A model generated the notes under the pieces. The model had not been told where the DNA came from, made no database searches, and worked only from the letters and a program-made list of their open reading frames with translations. The position numbers were made by a program, and so were the translations under genes. From positions 7,535,001 to 7,599,000 of the forward strand of contig NZ_LT670818.1 of assembly GCF_900129505.1 (NCBI RefSeq): DNA of 64,000 nucleotides, written 5' to 3'. The stretch is from Bradyrhizobium erythrophlei (GTDB lineage: Bacteria > Pseudomonadota > Alphaproteobacteria > Rhizobiales > Xanthobacteraceae). Below, one piece after another: positions 10,914 through 38,776 of this stretch (within the stretch, counting starts at the first letter, position 1; every line of letters starts with the position of its first letter).

Positions 10914-11157
10914 TCGACGAGCTGCTGGCGGCTTGACGGGCTACTTATAGTGAGCACGAGTAACCTCTATGAAATCTCCGTTCCATCCCACACTCCATCT
11001 TTTCCCTTTAAGATAAAGTGTTGCGTCGACCGGTTGAGACCGCCCCCCGACAACGGACATTCGGTGCCTAAACCGCGATGACCGTTTCGGTAGAGTCGAG
11101 GATGGGCGCGGTAGCTTGGGCCATTCGGCAACGCTCCGTTTCCCATCCCCGCTCATC

Positions 11158-11190
11158 GAACCGGACGTGCCCGATTAAGGCATCCGGCTC
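11158..11190 (-). ncRNA. group II intron domain V (catalytic hairpin)
   Basis: A 33-base hairpin with 5' GAGCCGGATGCC and 3' GGGCACGTCCGGTTC; it contains the terminal-loop and bulge arrangement of bacterial domain V. The same sequence recurs at 35723-35755 in the second intron copy. Confidence 0.85.
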
Positions 11191-11201
11191 TCCGACTGAT
11201 T

Positions 11202-12527
11202 TCACCGTGAGGCACACAGCGGGGCCGTTAGGGGTAGGCGTTCGAGACGCAGCAGACCGTGTTGTCCATAGACAACGTCGAGAGAGAACCGGTGTGTGCC
11301 ACGTCCTGCCACTTTGTGCCGTCTGGCGAGGAAGTCGCGTACGCGCTCATAAACGTATCGGTCAATGCCGCGGAATGCCGATCGGCGCGTTCCATGGCAG
11401 AAGTAGTTCGACCAGCCAAGCAGAGAGCTGTTCAGCGTGTCGCGCACTTCGGGCCATGGATCGTTGTTGCCAGGCACCAGCAGATTGCCAACCTTCGTTT
11501 TGAGCCGTTGCACGCTCTTCTTGGACGGGCTCGCGCTCAGATACCAATGACCGTTCGCTTTGTAACGGTGAGGTCCGAACGAGTAGCCGAGGAAGTCGAA
11601 GCGTTCTTGCCGAGCATTCTTCAACGAGGTCTTGGCCTCGTTGAGTGTCAGCCCGAGCCGCGTCATCACCGCCTTCGTCCACGCCAGGGCCTCGGCCGCA
11701 CATCCGCGACTGAGGATAACGAAGTCGTCGGCATACGCGATGACGTGTGCCCGGAACGCCTCCCCGCGCCCGGTCAGCCGCCAATACTTCAGGAACCGAT
11801 TCATGTAGATGTTGGCCAGCAGTGGGCTCACGACGCCGCCCTGTGGCGTGCCGCGCGCGTTGCTCTTGCCACCACCGATGCGCCGGGTCCCGTCGCCATC
11901 ATCCCGTTCCTCGATCGGCGCTTTCAGCCACAGCTTGATCAGCCGGAGCACGTGCCGGTCCACGATGCGACGAGCTACTGATTTCAGAAGCTCGCCGTGC
12001 GGAATCGAATCGAAGTAGCGGGATAAGTCGGCGTCGACCACGTCGGTATGGCCCCGGCAGATCAGCCGGTGCACTTCCTTGACCGCGTCCACCGCTCCGC
12101 GAACGGGGCGGTAGCCGTAGGCATTGTCCTCGAAGTCCGCCTCGAAGATCGGTTCCAGCACGAGCTTGGCGGCGGTCTGCACCACCCGATCCCGGATCGT
12201 CGGAATGCCGAGCGGTCGCTCGCCTCCGTCCGGCTTCGGTATGGACACCCGCCGCACCGGATCGGGCCGGTACGCCTTCGAAACCAGTTCCTCGCGCAGG
12301 CCCGCCAGCCACCTCTCCAGGCCCGACGCCTCAACCGCCGCAAAGGTCATTCCGTCCGTACCCGGCGCACCCGCATTTGCTCGGGCCAGCGCATAGGCAT
12401 GACGCAGGATGTCCGCTCGGTAAATCTTGTCGTAGAGCAGGTAGAAGCGGAAGGCAGGCTCCGCCTTCGCCTTGCGGTATAGCTTTCTCTGAAGGGTCCG
12501 GATCGTTGTCGGTGTTGCCAGGCTCAT
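11202..12527 (-). CDS. ltrA: group II intron reverse transcriptase / maturase
   Basis: A 441-residue intron-encoded protein. RT motifs in order: GTDGMTFAAVEASGLERWL (RT1 region), PKPDGGERPLGIPTIRDRVV, DLSRYFDSIPH, GTPQGGVVSPLLANIYMN, the catalytic YADDFVIL, then the thumb/maturase X region (SLLGWSNYFCHG, IDRYVYERVRDFLARRHK). There is no HNH endonuclease domain after X, so it is an endonuclease-minus type that would use nascent DNA strands for priming. ATG 12527 is preferred over TTG 12533. The protein splices its own intron and may act in trans on the ORF-less relative at 35002-36382. Confidence 0.93.
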   Translation of the reverse strand: MSLATPTTIRTLQRKLYRKAKAEPAFRFYLLYDKIYRADILRHAYALARANAGAPGTDGMTFAAVEASGLERWLAGLREELVSKAYRPDPVRRVSIPKPDGGERPLGIPTIRDRVVQTAAKLVLEPIFEADFEDNAYGYRPVRGAVDAVKEVHRLICRGHTDVVDADLSRYFDSIPHGELLKSVARRIVDRHVLRLIKLWLKAPIEERDDGDGTRRIGGGKSNARGTPQGGVVSPLLANIYMNRFLKYWRLTGRGEAFRAHVIAYADDFVILSRGCAAEALAWTKAVMTRLGLTLNEAKTSLKNARQERFDFLGYSFGPHRYKANGHWYLSASPSKKSVQRLKTKVGNLLVPGNNDPWPEVRDTLNSSLLGWSNYFCHGTRRSAFRGIDRYVYERVRDFLARRHKVAGRGTHRFSLDVVYGQHGLLRLERLPLTAPLCASR

Positions 12528-13189
12528 CGCCAATCACCTTCACCTCACCATCTTCGAAAGCGCACCAGAAGTCAGGGCCCTTTCCTCAGCCAGCATTACC
12601 CGGCTTCGACGGTCATACGACCCCGTCCGACTCCCGCCATGGCCGCCGCCTTCGCGACGTTGAGGCCGCTACCCTCGCCCTTGACGGGTCTCCCCCGATT
12701 ACCCGAACCACCTTTCCGACGTGCCGTGCCCACTACCCCGGCGGATCAAGCGGGTGCGCGTGTCGATTGCTTCCCCGCTCATACAGCCTTCCCCAAATGG
12801 CAGGAGGGTCGGCATCCGCATTGTCACTTTCGAGGCCTGCTCAGGCTTCACTCACGTTACGGCCCGCCGGATTGCTCAACCGCCTAAAGCGGCCTTTGTC
12901 ACGAGGCTCCAGCCCTGCCGGTTACCCGGCCGAACCGCTCGTCAGCTACCAGATCAATCGACAACTCTCTGGGTGGAATCTTCCTCCACTAGTGATCCGC
13001 GCCTTCGGGGCGCACTGCCAACAGGAGACTAATGTACCGCAGCAATGACCGGCGCTGTTCGATCACCTCGTCCGCAGCTACTTGCCGAGGCGGTGGGACC
13101 GTAAGTCCAAGTGCTTTGGCGGTCAGTGATTGCTGTCTTGGCAAGCACTCTATCGAGGTCTAGCATTTGAGCAGCGTGTGGAGACTTCG

Positions 13190-13990
13190 ATGGCTTCAAG
13201 CTTCAATGTCCATGATGCGGCCGGCTATGAGCGGCTCATGGGCCGGTGGAGCCAAAAACTCGCGCCCCTGTTCATCGAGTTCGCGGGTCTTGCCAACGGC
13301 GAAAAGATTCTTGACGTCGGCTGCGGCACTGGCAGCCTGACATTCGCGCTAACCAAGGCCGCCGATCTCGGCGAGATCAGTGCCATCGACTATTCATCCG
13401 TCTTCGTAGAGGCGGCGAATCGACGCAATACCGATCCACGCATCAAGATCCGCCAGGCGGACGCCTGCGCCTTGCCCTTCAAGGACGCTATGTTCGACCG
13501 GGCATTTGCGCTGCTCGTGCTCCACTTTGTGCCGGAAGCCGGCAAGGCCGTGGCCGAAATGCGCCGCGTCGTACGGCCGGGCGGCGCCGTCGCAGCCGTC
13601 GTGTGGGACCACCTTGGCGGCATGGCCGGCATGCGCATGATGATCGACACGGTCGCGGCGCTGGGCGAAAGCGGGCGGCAGTTACGAAGCCGCTATTGCT
13701 TCCAGCCGATGATGCAGCCGGGCGAAATGAAGCGGACTTTTATCCACCAGGGGCTTGCGGATGTCACGGAAACCGATCTGATGATCCGCATGGACTATCA
13801 GAACTTCGACGACTATTGGGCACCGATTGCCGCGGGCGAAGGTCCGCTTGGGAAATATATGACCACGCTCGACGCAGCGGAGCGGCGGCGCACCGATGCC
13901 GCCGTGCGCGATGCCTACGAGGCCGGCCAGCCCGATGGCCCGAGGTCATTCGCGAATGTCGCTCGGGCCTGCCGCGGCATCGTTCCCTGA
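13190..13990 (+). CDS. class I SAM-dependent methyltransferase
   Basis: A 266-residue soluble enzyme with Rossmann-like motifs: motif I ILDVGCGTGSLTFAL at about residue 40, an acidic motif II (ISAIDYS), motif post-I QADACALPF, motif LLVLHFVPE and the motif III loop RVVRPGGAVAAVVWD. This is the methyltransferase 11/25 group. The C terminus varies and gives no substrate. Start ATG 13190. It stands alone between an intron and an IS element, so context says nothing on its pathway. Confidence 0.85.
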   Translation: MASSFNVHDAAGYERLMGRWSQKLAPLFIEFAGLANGEKILDVGCGTGSLTFALTKAADLGEISAIDYSSVFVEAANRRNTDPRIKIRQADACALPFKDAMFDRAFALLVLHFVPEAGKAVAEMRRVVRPGGAVAAVVWDHLGGMAGMRMMIDTVAALGESGRQLRSRYCFQPMMQPGEMKRTFIHQGLADVTETDLMIRMDYQNFDDYWAPIAAGEGPLGKYMTTLDAAERRRTDAAVRDAYEAGQPDGPRSFANVARACRGIVP

Positions 13991-14034
13991 CCCAATTACA
14001 GCCCTCAGCATGAAATGCTGGTCGATGTCTCATA

Positions 14035-15196
14035 CCAACGGCCCTAATTATTGACTGTTGCCCATGTTCGTGTGGTGATTGAGGCGATGCGCTTTGGATC
14101 GTGTTCAAAGAAGTTCCATGCGTCGCAGGTTTTATCAACGATGTCGTCGTAGTCGTCGAAGACGGTGATCGCGAGTTTGTTGCCGCGCAGATATTCCCAG
14201 ACGTTTTCGATCGGATTGAGTTCAGGCGCGTAGGGTGGCAGACGCACCAGGGTGACGTTTTCGGGGATCGTGAGCGCGGCAGCAATGTGATAGCCGGCGC
14301 CATCGAGGACAAGAGCGGCGTGGCTACCTGCCGCCACCTTGCGGCAGATCGCTGTGAGATGCAGCGACATGGCCTCGGCGTTCGCCGCCGGCATGACCAG
14401 ACCTGCTGCGACGCGACGCTGCGGACAGGCCGCGCCGAACAGGTAGGCCCAGTCGTAGCGCTGGTCGTGCGGTGCGCGGGGCCTCGTTCCACGCTTGGCC
14501 CAGACGCGGGTCAGCGTGCCCTGCTGGCCGATCCGGGCCTCATCTTGGAACCAGATTTCGATCGGCTTGTCTTTGGCGTGCTCGGGAATTTGCGCCCTGA
14601 CGGTCGCGGCGAAGTTTTTTTAAACGTCTGCTGGGCTTCTTCGTCAGCCTGCGGGTGGCGGGGCCTTACCGACAGTTTGCGGTAGCCGAGCTTGGCTAGA
14701 ACCTTCCCGACCGAACGCTCGTGGAGCGTGACACCGAAGCGCCGCTGCAATTCGTCGCGCAGATCGACCCGCCGCCAACGCACTACCCCGTGCACCGCGG
14801 GGTCGGGGCCGGCCTCGACAAGCTCGGCCAATTCGGCCTGCTGCCGCACCGTGAGTTTTGATCCGGGACCTGGCGATTTGAGATTGCGAAGCCCGGCCAG
14901 TCCCGCGGCGTTGTAACGGTGCACCCAGTCCCGCAAGGTCTGACGGTCCATGCCGCAGGTTTCGGCCGCCGTTTTGCGGTCCGAGCCATCGAGCACCAGC
15001 GCAAGCGCGAGTATCCGACGCGCCGCGGCGCTATCCTTCTCTCCGCTCGCCGCCTTGCGAAGCGCCGAAGCCGTCAGATCAAGTCGGGTGATCGATACCG
15101 CCGCTCCCATCGATGCCGCTCCTCTCAAAGGCTAGCATCGAGTCAGAGTTTCCCTGATTTGGGAATCCCTAATGAGTCACAGTTTCGGGCCGTTGG
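14035..15196 (-). mobile_element. IS630-family insertion sequence, complete
   Basis: Terminal inverted repeats CCAACGGCCC (left, 14035) and GGGCCGTTGG (right, 15196) flanked by TA at 14033-14034 and 15197-15198, the target duplication of the IS630/Tc1 group. The 1162-base element holds one transposase in two frames. It interrupts a copy of the long dispersed repeat: the sequence ATGTCTCA on the left and TCAGATGGGTCAAAGG on the right are continuous in the uninterrupted copy at 29448. Confidence 0.88.
14044..15110 (-). CDS. IS630-family transposase, expressed by -1 frameshifting
   Basis: Frame 1 (15110 to about 14610) gives an N-terminal helix-turn-helix region (TAAETCGMDRQTLRDWVHRY, then a second one ending VGKVLAKLGYRKLS). 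Frame 2 gives the DDE catalytic domain: IEIWFQDEARIGQQG, ALVLDGAGYHIAAAL, VRLPPYAPELNPIENVWEYL (final E). They join at TTTAAAAAAAC near 14620, an A7 slippery run; a -1 slip there makes one continuous protein of about 355 residues. This is the known expression mode of several IS630 members, so the element is counted as functional, not broken. Confidence 0.82.
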
Positions 15197-15535
15197 TATC
15201 AGATGGGTCAAAGGCCGACCTCAAGCCGAGAATGCTCAAGGTCCGCTCTTCCATCAACAGCGGACATTCGCCGAAGCAGCCAAGTGGGCTTTTCCTTTTA
15301 AAAGAACTGAAGATCTTGCCTGTGAACCAGGCCCACCGGTCCGCATCCTCATCGCGCCAGAGAATTGACCACCCCCCACCCCGAAGGTCGGATGACGCGC
15401 CTAGTTCCGGTTGAAGTAGACCTCAAGCAGCAAATCTTTGATGTCTGCTCTACCTCAACAACGGACATTCACCAAAGAGGGCGGTTACGTCAGCTTTGGT
15501 AGAGTCGAGGATATCCGCCTGATGTCCGGTTTGAG
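15197..15535. repeat. long dispersed repeat, copy R1 (carries IS630 and an intron scar)
   Basis: In order: GGGTCAAAGGCCGACC; a hairpin GGTCCGCTCTTCCATC/AACAGCGGACATTC; the inverted pair GTGGGC...GCCCAC around an AT-rich loop; CCGGTCCGCATCCTC; ATTGACCACCCCCCACC; GTAGACCTCAAGCAGC; then the GGACAT hairpin and GGTTACGTCAGCTTTG. Related copies are at 27527, 29448 and 33003, with relatives at 18896, 22245 and 39190. The IS630 element is inserted near its left end. Confidence 0.8.
15499..15512 (-). other. group II intron 3'-end scar inside repeat R1
   Basis: Between CAGCTTTG and the rest of the repeat, R1 has an extra 36 or so bases beginning GTAGAGTCGAGGAT, identical to the 3' terminus of introns A and A' read on the + strand. 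Copies R2 and R4 run CAGCTTTGTGCCA without it. The junction is the same bond at which the two larger introns sit. Confidence 0.65.
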
Positions 15536-27526: not shown

Positions 27527-27815
27527 GGGTCAAAAAGCTGAATAGCTCAAGTCGAAGCGCGTCTTGTAGCTTTCGACCACAGAAGTGGGTCTTTTGTTTT
27601 TTAAAAACCGGAATTCTGGCGTGTGAATGAGGCCCACCGGTCCGCATCCTCTTCGCGCCAGAGAATTGACCACCCCCCACCCCGAAGGTCTGACGACGCG
27701 CCTAGTTCCGGTTGAAGTTCACCTCAAGCAGCAAATCTTTGATGTCTGCTCTTCCCTCAACAACGGACGTTCACCAAAGGGGCGGTTACGTCAGCTTTGT
27801 GCCAATAACGGAAGT
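27527..27815. repeat. long dispersed repeat, copy R2
   Basis: GGGTCAAAAAGCTGAATAGC at the left (also at 3512), GTGGGTCTTTTGTTTTTTAA...GGCCCACCGGTCCGCATCCT, CCACCCCCCACCCCGAAGGT, CTCAAGCAGCAAATCTTTGA, then the GGACAT hairpin, GGTTACGTCAGCTTTG and TGCCAATAACGG: an intron-free target site. It lies between the YciI gene and the glycine-rich gene. Confidence 0.8.
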
Positions 27816-27868
27816 CGCGACCTGGCTTCATATTCCGGAGCTGTTCCTTTCCGCACGCGCGACTGCCG

Positions 27869-33002: not shown

Positions 33003-33325
33003 GGGTCATCTGCGGACCTCAGGAAGCAAATGCTCAAGGTCTGCTATTTCCTCAACAGCGGACATTCGCAACACTACGGTCTACCGACCAGGTCGCCTCG
33101 AGAGGGTGGGTTTTTCCTTTTAAAAAAACTGAAAATTCTGCATACGAACCAGGCCCACCGGTCCGCATCCTCTTTGCGCCAGAGAATTGACCACCCCCCA
33201 CCCCGAAGGTCTGACGACGCGCCTAGTTCCGGTTGAAGTAGACCTCAAGCAGCAAATCTTTGATGTCTGCTCACCTCAACAACGGACATTCACCAAAGGG
33301 GCGGTTACGTCAGCTTTGTGCCAGG
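33003..33325. repeat. long dispersed repeat, copy R4
   Basis: AATGCTCAAGGTCTGCTATT, CCTCAACAGCGGACATTCGC, GGTGGGTTTTTCCTTTTAAA, GGCCCACCGGTCCGCATCCT, CCACCCCCCACCCCGAAGGT, CTCAAGCAGCAAATCTTTGA, GGACAT hairpin, GGTTACGTCAGCTTTG, TGCCA. Nearly base-for-base like R2 across the second half. Confidence 0.8.
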
Positions 33326-33421
33326 AGGAGACTCTCGCGCTGCAGCAAACGCAACACTATCTTCATTCGGCCCGGTTTCGACGCGGCGCGCCATGCAATC
33401 CTGATTGGAGAGGAACCTCGA

Positions 33422-34713: not shown

Positions 34714-35001
34714 ACGACTGAGCCCTCTGCACATCCTTCGAAGGCGACACCGGGTTCTTCAGCTTGACCCCATGTGGCGAACGGCCCGCGCGATTTAGGG
34801 AGCAAATCACGCACCTTGTCGCAAGAAAAATTTGTTACCCTACCGGTCACTTCATGTCCGCTTCGCCCCAAAAGCGACCCGATGAATACGCACACGCGAG
34901 ATGACGCGAAGGGTCAAAAACGGAAGTTGGGTCACGTCTGAGCTTGGTCCGTTCATCCCTCAACAGCGGACATGCGGCGACTGCATTGGCATGTCATTTC
35001 G

Positions 35002-36382
35002 GTAGAGTCGAGGATGAGCGCGGTAGCTTGGGCCATTCGGCAACGCTCCGTTTCCCATCCCACCGGGTCGCCGGAGGCGGTCGCCCGCCCCCGGCTCCCA
35101 CAGAACGTGGCGTGCGGATTTCCCGCACCACGCTCTTCGGCAGTTGGTTCACAGCTTTCACTGCTATCTGTTCAAGTTTCGTTTCCATGGTCAGCTGATC
35201 TTCTCACTGAGTAGAAGGCCGTAACTCCCGTTGAATGGAGCCCATGTCGCCCAAGAACAATTCAACTACCGCTGACCGCTTCCCCATGTGGCCGGCTCTC
35301 CCGTCCTCGGAGTACTACCAGTCAGTCTGACTTCCACTCGGTCATCAGGCCTCCCTCACCTTGTCGGCTTGTCGGGCCCTACAAACTTGCGTTTGAACCG
35401 AATGGATCTCCCTTGTTCACGTTGCTTCCTTTGGTTGCATGCTGGCGGTACCGAACCCCGGGAGCACCTCAGACCGCTCGCGTTGACGCGGTCTGCGATT
35501 CCGCCTTCCCCTTTGAGCGACGGGGTCGGCTACTCCGATCACGTTCGATTTCGGGGCTATATTCCCGTTCACTTCATTCCGGCCTACAACCTCCCTGTCT
35601 ACGCTTCGCAACGGCCGTTACCGGACGTCACGCAAGACTCGGTTCGCGGCTGCTCGCTAGGCTTTGCCGCGGCCGTCATTGCAGACTGCAGACTTCAACG
35701 CGCTTGCAAGGCGCAACGCTCATCGAACCGGACGTGCCCGATTAAGGCATCCGGCTCTCCGACTGGCTTCACCGTGAGGCACACGGAGAGCAAACTAACC
35801 GCACGCGGCTTCCGCGCAGTGAGTAACTCTCCTTCGCCCCTCGACACAGCAATCTCCGGCGGCGCCTGTCGATAATGGTGTTTGCAGGCTCATCGCCAAT
35901 CACCACGACCTCGCCATCTTCGAAAGCGCACCAGAAGTCGGGGCCCTTTCCTCAGCCAGCATTACCCGGCTTCAACGGTCATACGACCCCGTCCGACTCC
36001 CGCCATGGCCGCCGCCTTTCGCGACGTTGAGGCCGCTACCCTCACCCTTGACGGGTCTCCCCCGATTACCCGAACCACCTTTCCGACGTGCCGTGCCCAC
36101 TACCCCGGCGGATCGAGCGGGTGCGCGTGTCGATTGCTTCCCCGCTCATACAGCCTTCCCCAAATGGCAGGAGGGTCGGCATCCGCATTGTCACTTTCGA
36201 GGCCTGCTCAGGCTTCACACACGTTACGGCCCGCCGGATTGCTCAACCGCCTAAAGCGGCCTTTGTCACGAGGCTCCAGCCCTGCCAGTTACCCGGCCGA
36301 ACCGCTCGTCAGCTACCAGATCAATCGACAACTCTCTGGGTGGAATCTTCCTCCACTAGTGATTCGCGCCTTCGGGGCGCAC
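35002..36382 (-). mobile_element. ORF-less group II intron A' with a nested second intron
   Basis: The 5' end GTGCGCCCCGAAGGCGCG at 36382 and about 480 bases of domain I-III match intron A almost exactly. Where intron A has its 1.3-kb reverse transcriptase, A' has only about 90 bases (35793-35888); the first codons and the 3' flank of the ORF remain. Domain V is at 35755-35723. Domain VI is interrupted by intron B at 35062-35717 and resumes to the 3' end CTCTAC at 35002. The exons are GTTGGCA and CGAAA, as for intron A. Without B the intron is about 725 bases. It needs a maturase in trans. Confidence 0.82.
35062..35717 (-). mobile_element. ORF-less group II intron B nested in domain VI of A'
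   Basis: A different intron: start GTTGCGCCTTGCAAGCGCG at 35717, domain I features GAAGTGAACGGGAATATAGC, then a truncated ORF beginning METKLEQIAVKAVNQLPKSV (the usual N terminus of intron-encoded RTs) that runs straight into domain V (GAGCGTGGTGCGGGAAATCC, GCACGCCACGTTC) and a GC-rich domain VI (CCGGGGGCGGGCGACCGCC...). The 656-base unit has lost nearly all of the RT. Its boundaries coincide with a break of the intron A' sequence between GATGAGC and GGGATGGG. Confidence 0.75.
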
Positions 36383-36618
36383 TGCCAACTGCGGACGTGC
36401 CGTCTCACACAACCGAGGCAGCTGTGGGCCTAGGCCGTGTGAAAAGCCGAAGACGCTCGACTGCGTTAGAATAAGTAGTTCATTCAAGACCGCGGGGATT
36501 TTGATCCCCGCTATTGTCTCAGACATAGTGCAACCCTCGACGTCGTTGAAGGCTCCGATCACCGTCCGGATCACGCTGCCGGCGCGCCTGAACTCACAGG
36601 CTGCGAATACCACACGAC

Positions 36619-38169: not shown

Positions 38170-38776
38170 AGCAAACCTCCTTCTCGGATGGCTTGTTGCG
38201 GTATGCCAGGTAGCATGTAAGGAATTGACAGAGCCGGAACGCTTTAAACTCGATTCTGTTCCAGTGTGCTGAAAAACATTATGGCCAGGTGAACTTCAAG
38301 ACCTGCTGAGCGGCTTCATCCGTGTTGGGCAGAGCTTAGGCCAGGTCCGGTTGGGGTCAAACTCGGAAGTCGCGGGGCTCGCGGGGCACGTCCGTTCTAC
38401 CCTCAACAGCAGACATCGTCCGGCCGGCCCGGCATGTCCGAAAAGTGCCATGCGCGGACATCAGCGAGTGCGATGCGTTCGCTCATTTCACGAGTTCGAA
38501 ATCCGCCAGTTGCCACGTCTTGTTGAAGAACGGCTCAAGCGGACCATTCGTGAATTTGGGCATCCCAACAGCGGCGACATGCTCTAACGTACCAGCGAGT
38601 CTGCCTCGCGCTTTTGCGCGCCTATTGTCTCTCCCAGTTTCAGCAGGTCTTATTTGCAGGATCGCGCTTGTTAGGAGACTTAACAGCGCAAACGGGCGAG
38701 CGGCGACGTCCGCCGTTTCAGTTCGCGCGTTGGCTGCGCAGCGGGTTCGATTAACGACTTCGCGGAGCCAGTGGAA
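38170..38776. other. intergenic stretch with a GGACAT repeat copy
   Basis: Holds the short repeat at 38385-38462 and nothing else I can support. The first 100 bases before the cytochrome gene are the likely promoter. Confidence 0.45.
38385..38462 (-). repeat. GGACAT hairpin repeat module (short form)
   Basis: Minus strand: ATGGCA, then C plus 28 bases, then ATGTCTGCTGTTGAGGGTAG with arm ACGGAC. Same spacing as 781-852. An unoccupied relative of the intron target. Confidence 0.7.

Follow-up and report, generated by a model that had tools for sequence, protein, structure and literature searches.

Group II introns of several families in and beside a dispersed non-coding repeat of Bradyrhizobium erythrophlei

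How does a group II intron come to occupy the same bond of a dispersed repeat again and again? The question is raised by a 64,000-base stretch of the Bradyrhizobium erythrophlei chromosome (contig NZ_LT670818.1, positions 7535001–7599000 of a 9,184,651-base single-contig genome; hereafter the window, numbered from its first base), which contains a full-length group II intron (A), an interrupted copy of it (A′) and the last bases of an A-type intron, each joined at the same point to a copy of a non-coding repeat. A preliminary description of this DNA had proposed that the repeat family serves such introns as a genome-wide home. We consider it very probable that A, whose reverse transcriptase is without an endonuclease domain, is a mobile group II intron and retrohomes into the repeat by pairing of its exon-binding site 1 (EBS1), and that other intron families use other bonds, with a nested intron (B) at the linker that follows domain 5 of its hosts.

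Intron A is 1926 bp long (11090–13015; the introns, their parts and the repeat copies of the window all lie on the minus strand), starts with GTGCGCC and finishes with CTCGACTCTAC, between a 5′ exon GTTGGCA and a 3′ exon CGAAACGG. A′ (35002–36382; 1381 bp), a copy without the open reading frame (ORF), occupies the same bond of another repeat copy, between GTTGGCA and CGAAATGACATG. The conserved ribozyme core is present in both (Rfam RF02003, D1D4-4; 99.7 and 97.3 bits). Domain 5 of A can be read by eye (11158–11190), and full A copies score 35.9 bits with RF00029, below its gathering score of 40. Intron A encodes a reverse transcriptase/maturase of 443 amino acids (11202–12533; ORF with TIGR04416 at 353 bits, cut-off 300), in which RVT_1 and GIIM (E-values up to 0.001) are the sole Pfam matches, an endonuclease domain not being found among them; Bradyrhizobium proteins are the most similar named records (up to 82%). 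A hairpin in domain I, CCCTCC-TGCCA-TTTGGGG (12791–12807), is assigned as EBS1, with support from the covariation set out below: its loop is the exact complement of TGGCA, the intron-binding site 1 (IBS1) with which the 5′ exon ends (13016–13020 for A, 36383–36387 for A′). The domain I loop expected from the preliminary description is thus present, and its proposal of TTGGCA as IBS1 needs shortening for A itself, which forms five pairs with TGGCA; TTGGCA gains its sixth pair in a relative (L196). A candidate EBS2, GACA (12816–12830), could pair with TGTC-like bases at −15 to −12 of the 5′ exon, which makes an EBS2–IBS2 pairing GACA/TGTC plausible.

With a probe of 316 bases from the 5′ end of A, 17 matches were obtained in the genome: 14 close copies at 99–100% identity, two at 81–82% (lineage S) and one weak match. 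The 5′ exon of every close copy has TGGC at −5 to −2, followed by A in 13 and by G in one, and the 3′ exon begins with C in all 14; GTC at −14 to −12 is likewise found in 14/14, although its G at −14 is not exclusive to filled sites, being present in 9 of 12 empty repeats too. Two copies are of the 1926-bp form with the protein gene, seven are of 725–727 bp without it, four are twintrons of 1370–1382 bp without a protein gene, and one (L018; 2581 bp) has both the protein gene and a nested intron. Thirteen of the 14 lie in the repeat by profile. The repeat 3′ halves that hold A (11044–11089; profile E-value 0.003, with this site outside the training set) and A′ (34940–34996) belong to joined sites that score 26.1 and 37.5 bits, respectively, with a profile made from empty copies only (eight from a genome sample and four from the window, all 12 originally picked by means of an initial profile to which filled sites had contributed). 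Flanks joined across the intron match this empties-only profile in 11 of 12 A copies (25–57 bits), compared with 10 of 153 TGGCAC sites in a 400-kb sample of the same genome that reach 10 bits, eight of those ten being training copies (Fisher p ~9e-11). At L115, both A copies have a 3′ flank that matches the repeat model from position 22 on.

Compared among 12 A copies, the introns are on average 98.9% identical over their first 500 bases, whereas the joined repeat cores average 53.5% (maximum 68.3%) and the sequence 40–300 bases upstream averages 35.7%, that is, it is unrelated. Thus, on this sequence comparison, young introns have entered old, diverged repeats one at a time, and near-identical copies in unrelated places would imply that A is active in splicing and retrohoming. 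With the joined flanks of one copy, no orthologous empty locus was found in other species; these flanks match repeats of other genomes continuously across the junction, not at the same locus, and in genome G041 the left flank of that copy matches at 92% over query positions 1–189 before diverging.

Empty copies of the repeat allow filled and unfilled sites to be compared directly. The window has four, at 766–860, 27725–27819, 33244–33338 and 38371–38465. In the first and last of these, TGGCA is followed by C plus 28 bases and then by ATGTCYGCT; the other two are, downstream of the bond, much like R1 (15426–15498), the 3′ half of a repeat broken at the insertion bond, whose model match (7550426–7550497 in the genome) begins at model position 22, one base past the insertion bond. 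Next to R1, at 15499–15512, are the final 14 bases of an A-type intron, identical to the 3′ ends of A and A′ and joined to CAAAGCTGACGTAACCGCC; the unbroken TGGCA-CAAAGCTGACGTAACCGCC at 33244–33338 and 27725–27819 provides the empty counterparts of this filled remnant. The order of the empty repeats and the remnant at the same point, both put forward in the preliminary description, are borne out by this comparison, and the coordinates, exons and distances that it gave for A and A′ are correct.

In the genome as a whole, a sequence-only model of the repeat matches 150 of 150 scored candidates (3715 in a first look), 150 being a lower bound. The bond used by A lies between positions 20 and 21 of this model. 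Of the 150 matches, 17 start past position 21: 11 of them at 22 (nine A copies, R1 and the A-type end at 5679492) and six deeper in the model, two of which are A copies that start at 25 and 27. The match starts no later than position 20 in the remaining 133, which no A-type intron interrupts; some of them may be filled at other bonds. Matches to the model are also found in 29 of 80 family genomes (this one included), spread over 22 of 47 genera, with a single weak match in several of them; the repeat is thus probably more ancient and more widespread than the introns. No transposase gene was seen in the repeat.

The link between intron and box is provided by covariation. In lineage S the domain I hairpin reads CCCTCC-GGTCA-TTTGGGG, and S sits after TGACC, the complement of its loop; at L032, 22 bases separate the S intron from the end of the repeat profile upstream of it, so that TGACC there is a downstream box of the same repeat. 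Over 23 distinct loops, including those of relatives from Mesorhizobium, Acidobacteria and others, 126 of 161 positions of EBS1 and 5′ exon can pair, whereas 10,000 sets of exons shuffled without regard to relatedness give 77.5 on average and never more than 104. Four loops that pair at 0–3 of 7 positions (L204, L205, L220 and L238), probably through a junction misplaced at a wrong GTG-like start, are included in these totals. A tree of the proteins places A together with S and with three introns of Bradyrhizobium, two of which have TGACC (support 99/98). This fits a change of EBS1, in either direction, by which a lineage would have passed from one box of the repeat to another, with L116 and L117 only candidates for lying in this repeat.

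Within the genus, 68 of 265 genomes have matches to the A probe, scored at no more than three candidates per genome. Five copies with EBS1 GGTCA (four in G236 and one in G039) stand at GA(T/A)TGACC with flanks that look repeat-like by eye, and G039, G041 and G230 have TGGCA-type copies with ATGTC upstream and the loops TGCCAA, CGCCA (one mismatch) and TGTCA (one G-U), respectively. In G219, a related intron whose EBS1 is TGAGAT gives eleven full matches (L201, L237–L260); six of the nine 5′ exons that were read end in CTCA, and by eye none resembles this repeat. Several 5′ exons in G219 have TAGCCCG-N-TTTCTCA in common, perhaps another recurrent target. A further lineage of the genus, with EBS1 CGTATGG (L205–L222), is found in a recurrent stretch like TATGTGAAGCC, which we take to be, perhaps, a transposase gene.

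The repeat also holds introns that are only distantly related to A. Thirty-one insertions were examined in the genome, and 23 of them lie in or directly beside the repeat by profile: 13 A copies, an A-type end at 5679279, one S, five E, and one each of D (L105), X (L113) and F (L104). Two of the five E placements are weak (E-values 4e-4 and 1e-3); D in L105 has an E-value of 6e-4, X is 19 bases from the repeat match, and F is in the same repeat copy as an E intron. Six insertions rest on short matches found by eye (A in L026, S in L031, D twice in L103, F in L106 and G in L107). The last two of the 31 are the copy at 5267188 and the class C intron at 4081861. Outside the count are broken reverse transcriptase fragments at 1467063–1467638, a weak reverse transcriptase match at 2346568, fragments of B at 8691876–8692092 and 5265692, and anything missed by the RF00029 search, in which 150 of 481 candidates were scored.

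A, D and E match different Rfam models of domains 1–4, and the proteins of E and A share 32% identity. The EBS1 loops of all three fit boxes of the same repeat. At L105, D has the loop TGCCA and sits at TGGCA, at the same bond as A; at L103 (L103a), D with the loop GACCC is inserted at GGGTC, which is the TTGACCC box read on the opposite strand. Family E has GCAGAT in an EBS1-like hairpin (read in L109), the complement of ATCTGC, and its five 5′ exons end in ATCTGC (two, perfect), ATTTGC (one, with G-U) or ATCTAC (two). One repeat copy, at 9.058–9.061 Mb, carries both A and E, at two bonds. The preliminary claim of a single occupied bond therefore holds for A but not for the repeat, which has several docking bonds on both strands. 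Family E (L108–L111 and L104) seems to begin with GAAGCGCC, without the usual GUGYG start; such a start after ATCTGC is odd for a group II intron.

A second kind of site is provided by the introns themselves. A′ was correctly recognized as an intron copy, but it contains a second intron that had been missed: B (35062–35716; 655 bp; RF02005 143.7 bits, RF00029 46.1 bits), nested between domains 5 and 6 after GATGAGCG. The flanks of B are contiguous in intron A (GATGAGCG|GGGATGGG), as expected of a twintron. An EBS1-like hairpin of B (35508–35527) has CGCTCA, the complement of TGAGCG in the host linker between domains 5 and 6. Five A copies have B at this point, and so does L113, a diverged host in which GATGAGCG is also present. 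There B is itself interrupted, again just after its domain 5, by a third intron of ~824 bp (6493190–6494013), giving three levels, and in L112 another intron end is found at the corresponding place after domain 5. Because the B introns of L228 (host with protein gene) and L229 (host without) have 2 differences, compared with 31–48 to the other three, B appears either to have homed repeatedly or to have been exchanged. Domain 5 serves catalysis and domain 6 branching; thus, normal splicing of the outer intron should require prior removal of the inner one, and splicing of these twintrons would be sequential.

In the mechanism that we propose, excised A RNA would pair its EBS1 TGCCA with TGGCA on one DNA strand and reverse-splice after the A of TGGCA and before C, after which the protein would copy the intron; copies without the ORF would be served by the protein in trans. 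A would in this respect work like the endonuclease-less RmInt1 type. The scattered non-coding repeat, with at least 150 genomic matches, would supply the TGGCA boxes as a large reservoir of homing sites. Other families would use other bonds or the other strand through a fitting EBS1, with S suited to another box, and the introns would create a second class of homing site, at which B (CGCTCA) enters TGAGCG after domain 5 of the host to form twintrons.

The orientation of the copies bears on which strand is used. Cumulative GC skew over forty 20-kb stretches has its minimum at ~2.0 Mb and its maximum at ~6.5 Mb, and dnaA is at 1.871 Mb. With the origin at 2.10 Mb and the terminus at 6.69 Mb, 13 of 14 A copies run along the replication fork, compared with 78 of the 136 repeat matches that remain (Fisher p 0.007). 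Other origins give a p of 0.010 and 81/136 for the remaining matches. The 136 are the 150 matches minus 14, one of which (8719947, start position 25) has no known intron. For introns in general, class C left out, the count along the fork is 26 of 30, or 25 of 30 with the origin at dnaA. The fork-wise orientation of A is suggestive of an intron-bearing strand that would be the lagging-strand template.

Could the repeats have carried the introns? A single insertion followed by multiplication of the intron-bearing repeat would account for the one bond common to all A copies, but it is contradicted by repeats far more diverged than the introns that they hold, by unrelated sequence outside, and by the 133 matches that are unbroken at the bond; gene conversion would have to have made the introns alike, and we give this explanation almost no credence. 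It is also very unlikely that a DNA hairpin selects the site, as in class C introns, with the pentamer secondary; the preliminary description had mentioned that class C introns insert beside terminator hairpins and attC sites. The repeat does contain complementary boxes (GACAT/ATGTC and TCCG/CGGA), yet its consensus folds at −1.63 kcal/mol, and the 45 bases upstream of 12 A insertions fold no better than shuffles (−4.5 versus −4.8 kcal/mol), whereas a class C intron of the same genome, used as a control, gives −15.1 versus −6.1 kcal/mol. This control (4081861–4082868; L085) lies directly behind a 12-bp terminator hairpin and is a textbook case. The hairpin was therefore rejected as the recognition signal, and the likeness to class C does not hold for A; EBS1 covaries with the exon, and sister introns use a different box, so that base pairing accounts for the site and a hairpin is unneeded.

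A more serious alternative, although still an unlikely one, is that EBS1 complementarity alone directs insertion, that insertions in genes are lost by selection, and that the repeat is simply a harmless place to be. The known mechanism needs just IBS1, IBS2 and IBS3, and intergenic repeats are presumably harmless. However, the repeat accounts for 10 of 153 sampled TGGCAC sites and yet, by profile, for 13 of 14 A copies, and the fit of the EBS1 loops of the distant families D and E to the same repeat is not predicted by counter-selection alone. Selection may add to the site pattern.

Several observations weigh against targeting of the repeat by base pairing as the general rule. Among the A copies, L026 has no profile match, L018 has GGCG rather than GGCA (possibly a wobble), and six lie at 7.43–7.57 Mb, where all listed repeats point one way, which weakens the orientation test. 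The repeat consensus, at just −1.6 kcal/mol, hardly folds. Among the other families, L031 (S), L106 (F) and L107 (G) are without a profile match and rest on short matches by eye, the profile match in L103 lies 30–100 bases from the junction, the IBS1 proposed for E is mismatched at one base in two of the five copies, and no profile match adjoins the copy at 5267188 (L114). The expectation that the other introns of the genome would share the repeat is met by several families but not by the class C intron at 4081861, which lies outside it behind its terminator hairpin. Finally, because related introns (G219) use other targets, the repeat is one of several targets of the clade, and the habit is not genus-wide.

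The home that the preliminary description had assigned to A is thus supported by 13 of its 14 close copies. For the wider arrangement we lean, by a modest degree, towards a repeat that is a shared landing pad for at least three distant families (A with S, D, and E; probably also F, G and X), partitioned by bond and strand through EBS1, with A and D converging on TGCCA, and with the linker after domain 5 as a second tier in which inner introns would hold the outer ones hostage for splicing.

Two features of the surroundings may be added. The listed clusters of repeats each share one orientation (1.49–1.51 Mb all plus; 2.32–2.39 Mb and 7.39–7.57 Mb all minus), which suggests local amplification or islands. 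Between A and R1, at 14030–15200, are ORFs with an inverted ATACCAACGGCCC end on either side, recognized by eye; we interpret them as an insertion sequence and assume it to be IS630-like.

The locus offers a natural experiment in how a community of retroelements shares a genome, with distant introns dividing one abundant non-coding target by bond and strand. The evolution of target specificity, through switching and convergence of EBS1, can be read here and is testable by compensatory mutation. The nesting is a clear case of insertion into the linker between domains 5 and 6, which should make the outer intron dependent on removal of the inner one, and the pairs of empty and filled repeats are natural targets for a possible rhizobial intron vector.

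Homing into multi-copy mobile elements, target families based on EBS, and twintrons are already known (PMC5894124, PMC2882425, PMC4424553, PMC4649490). RmInt1 and RmInt2 of Sinorhizobium meliloti retrohome into multi-copy elements, namely ISRm2011-2 and the inverted repeats of ISRm17, and RmInt1 prefers the lagging-strand template (PMC5894124). A resembles RmInt1 in its protein without an endonuclease domain and in its multi-copy target, and the way in which 13 of 14 A copies are oriented would agree with such a strand preference; unlike these insertion-sequence targets, the target here is a repeat common to distant families, with several bonds on both strands. In Thermosynechococcus elongatus, as here, families differ in EBS and hence in target, ORF-less copies occur, and twintrons arise by homing to a conserved intron site; however, the inner intron is placed there in domain IV between two start codons, rather than between domains 5 and 6, and the targets described in the part of the paper considered are, among others, insertion sequences and introns rather than a single shared repeat (PMC2882425). 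Repeated homing into introns is also seen in Methanosarcina acetivorans, where up to five are nested and the homing site is perpetual, whereas in B. erythrophlei the nested introns sit in the linker between domains 5 and 6 of hosts whose own basic target is a repeat (PMC4424553). Like class C introns at terminators and attC sites, A disperses to a recurrent genomic motif, but its sites have a base-pairing box and no upstream hairpin (PMC4424553). The Trichodesmium twintron is likewise a bacterial group II intron inside another, for which sequential splicing has been shown; its inner intron is in domain 1 and its host in a gene, in contrast to the position between domains 5 and 6 and the intergenic repeat found here (PMC4649490). 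The repeat itself recalls Br-REP1 and Br-REP2 of Bradyrhizobium japonicum, which are also intergenic palindromic repeats (PMC5082802); identity with them was rejected, the Br-REP1 core and a 20-base part of Br-REP2 being absent from the 12 empty copies (up to 4 mismatches) and from the window (up to 3). No prior description of this system was found among the titles listed from the open-licence literature (the top 10–20 where results were many), and, as far as those titles show, what is new is a non-coding repeat as the shared target of several distant intron families that use different bonds and strands, the convergence of their EBS1, and nesting in the linker between domains 5 and 6.

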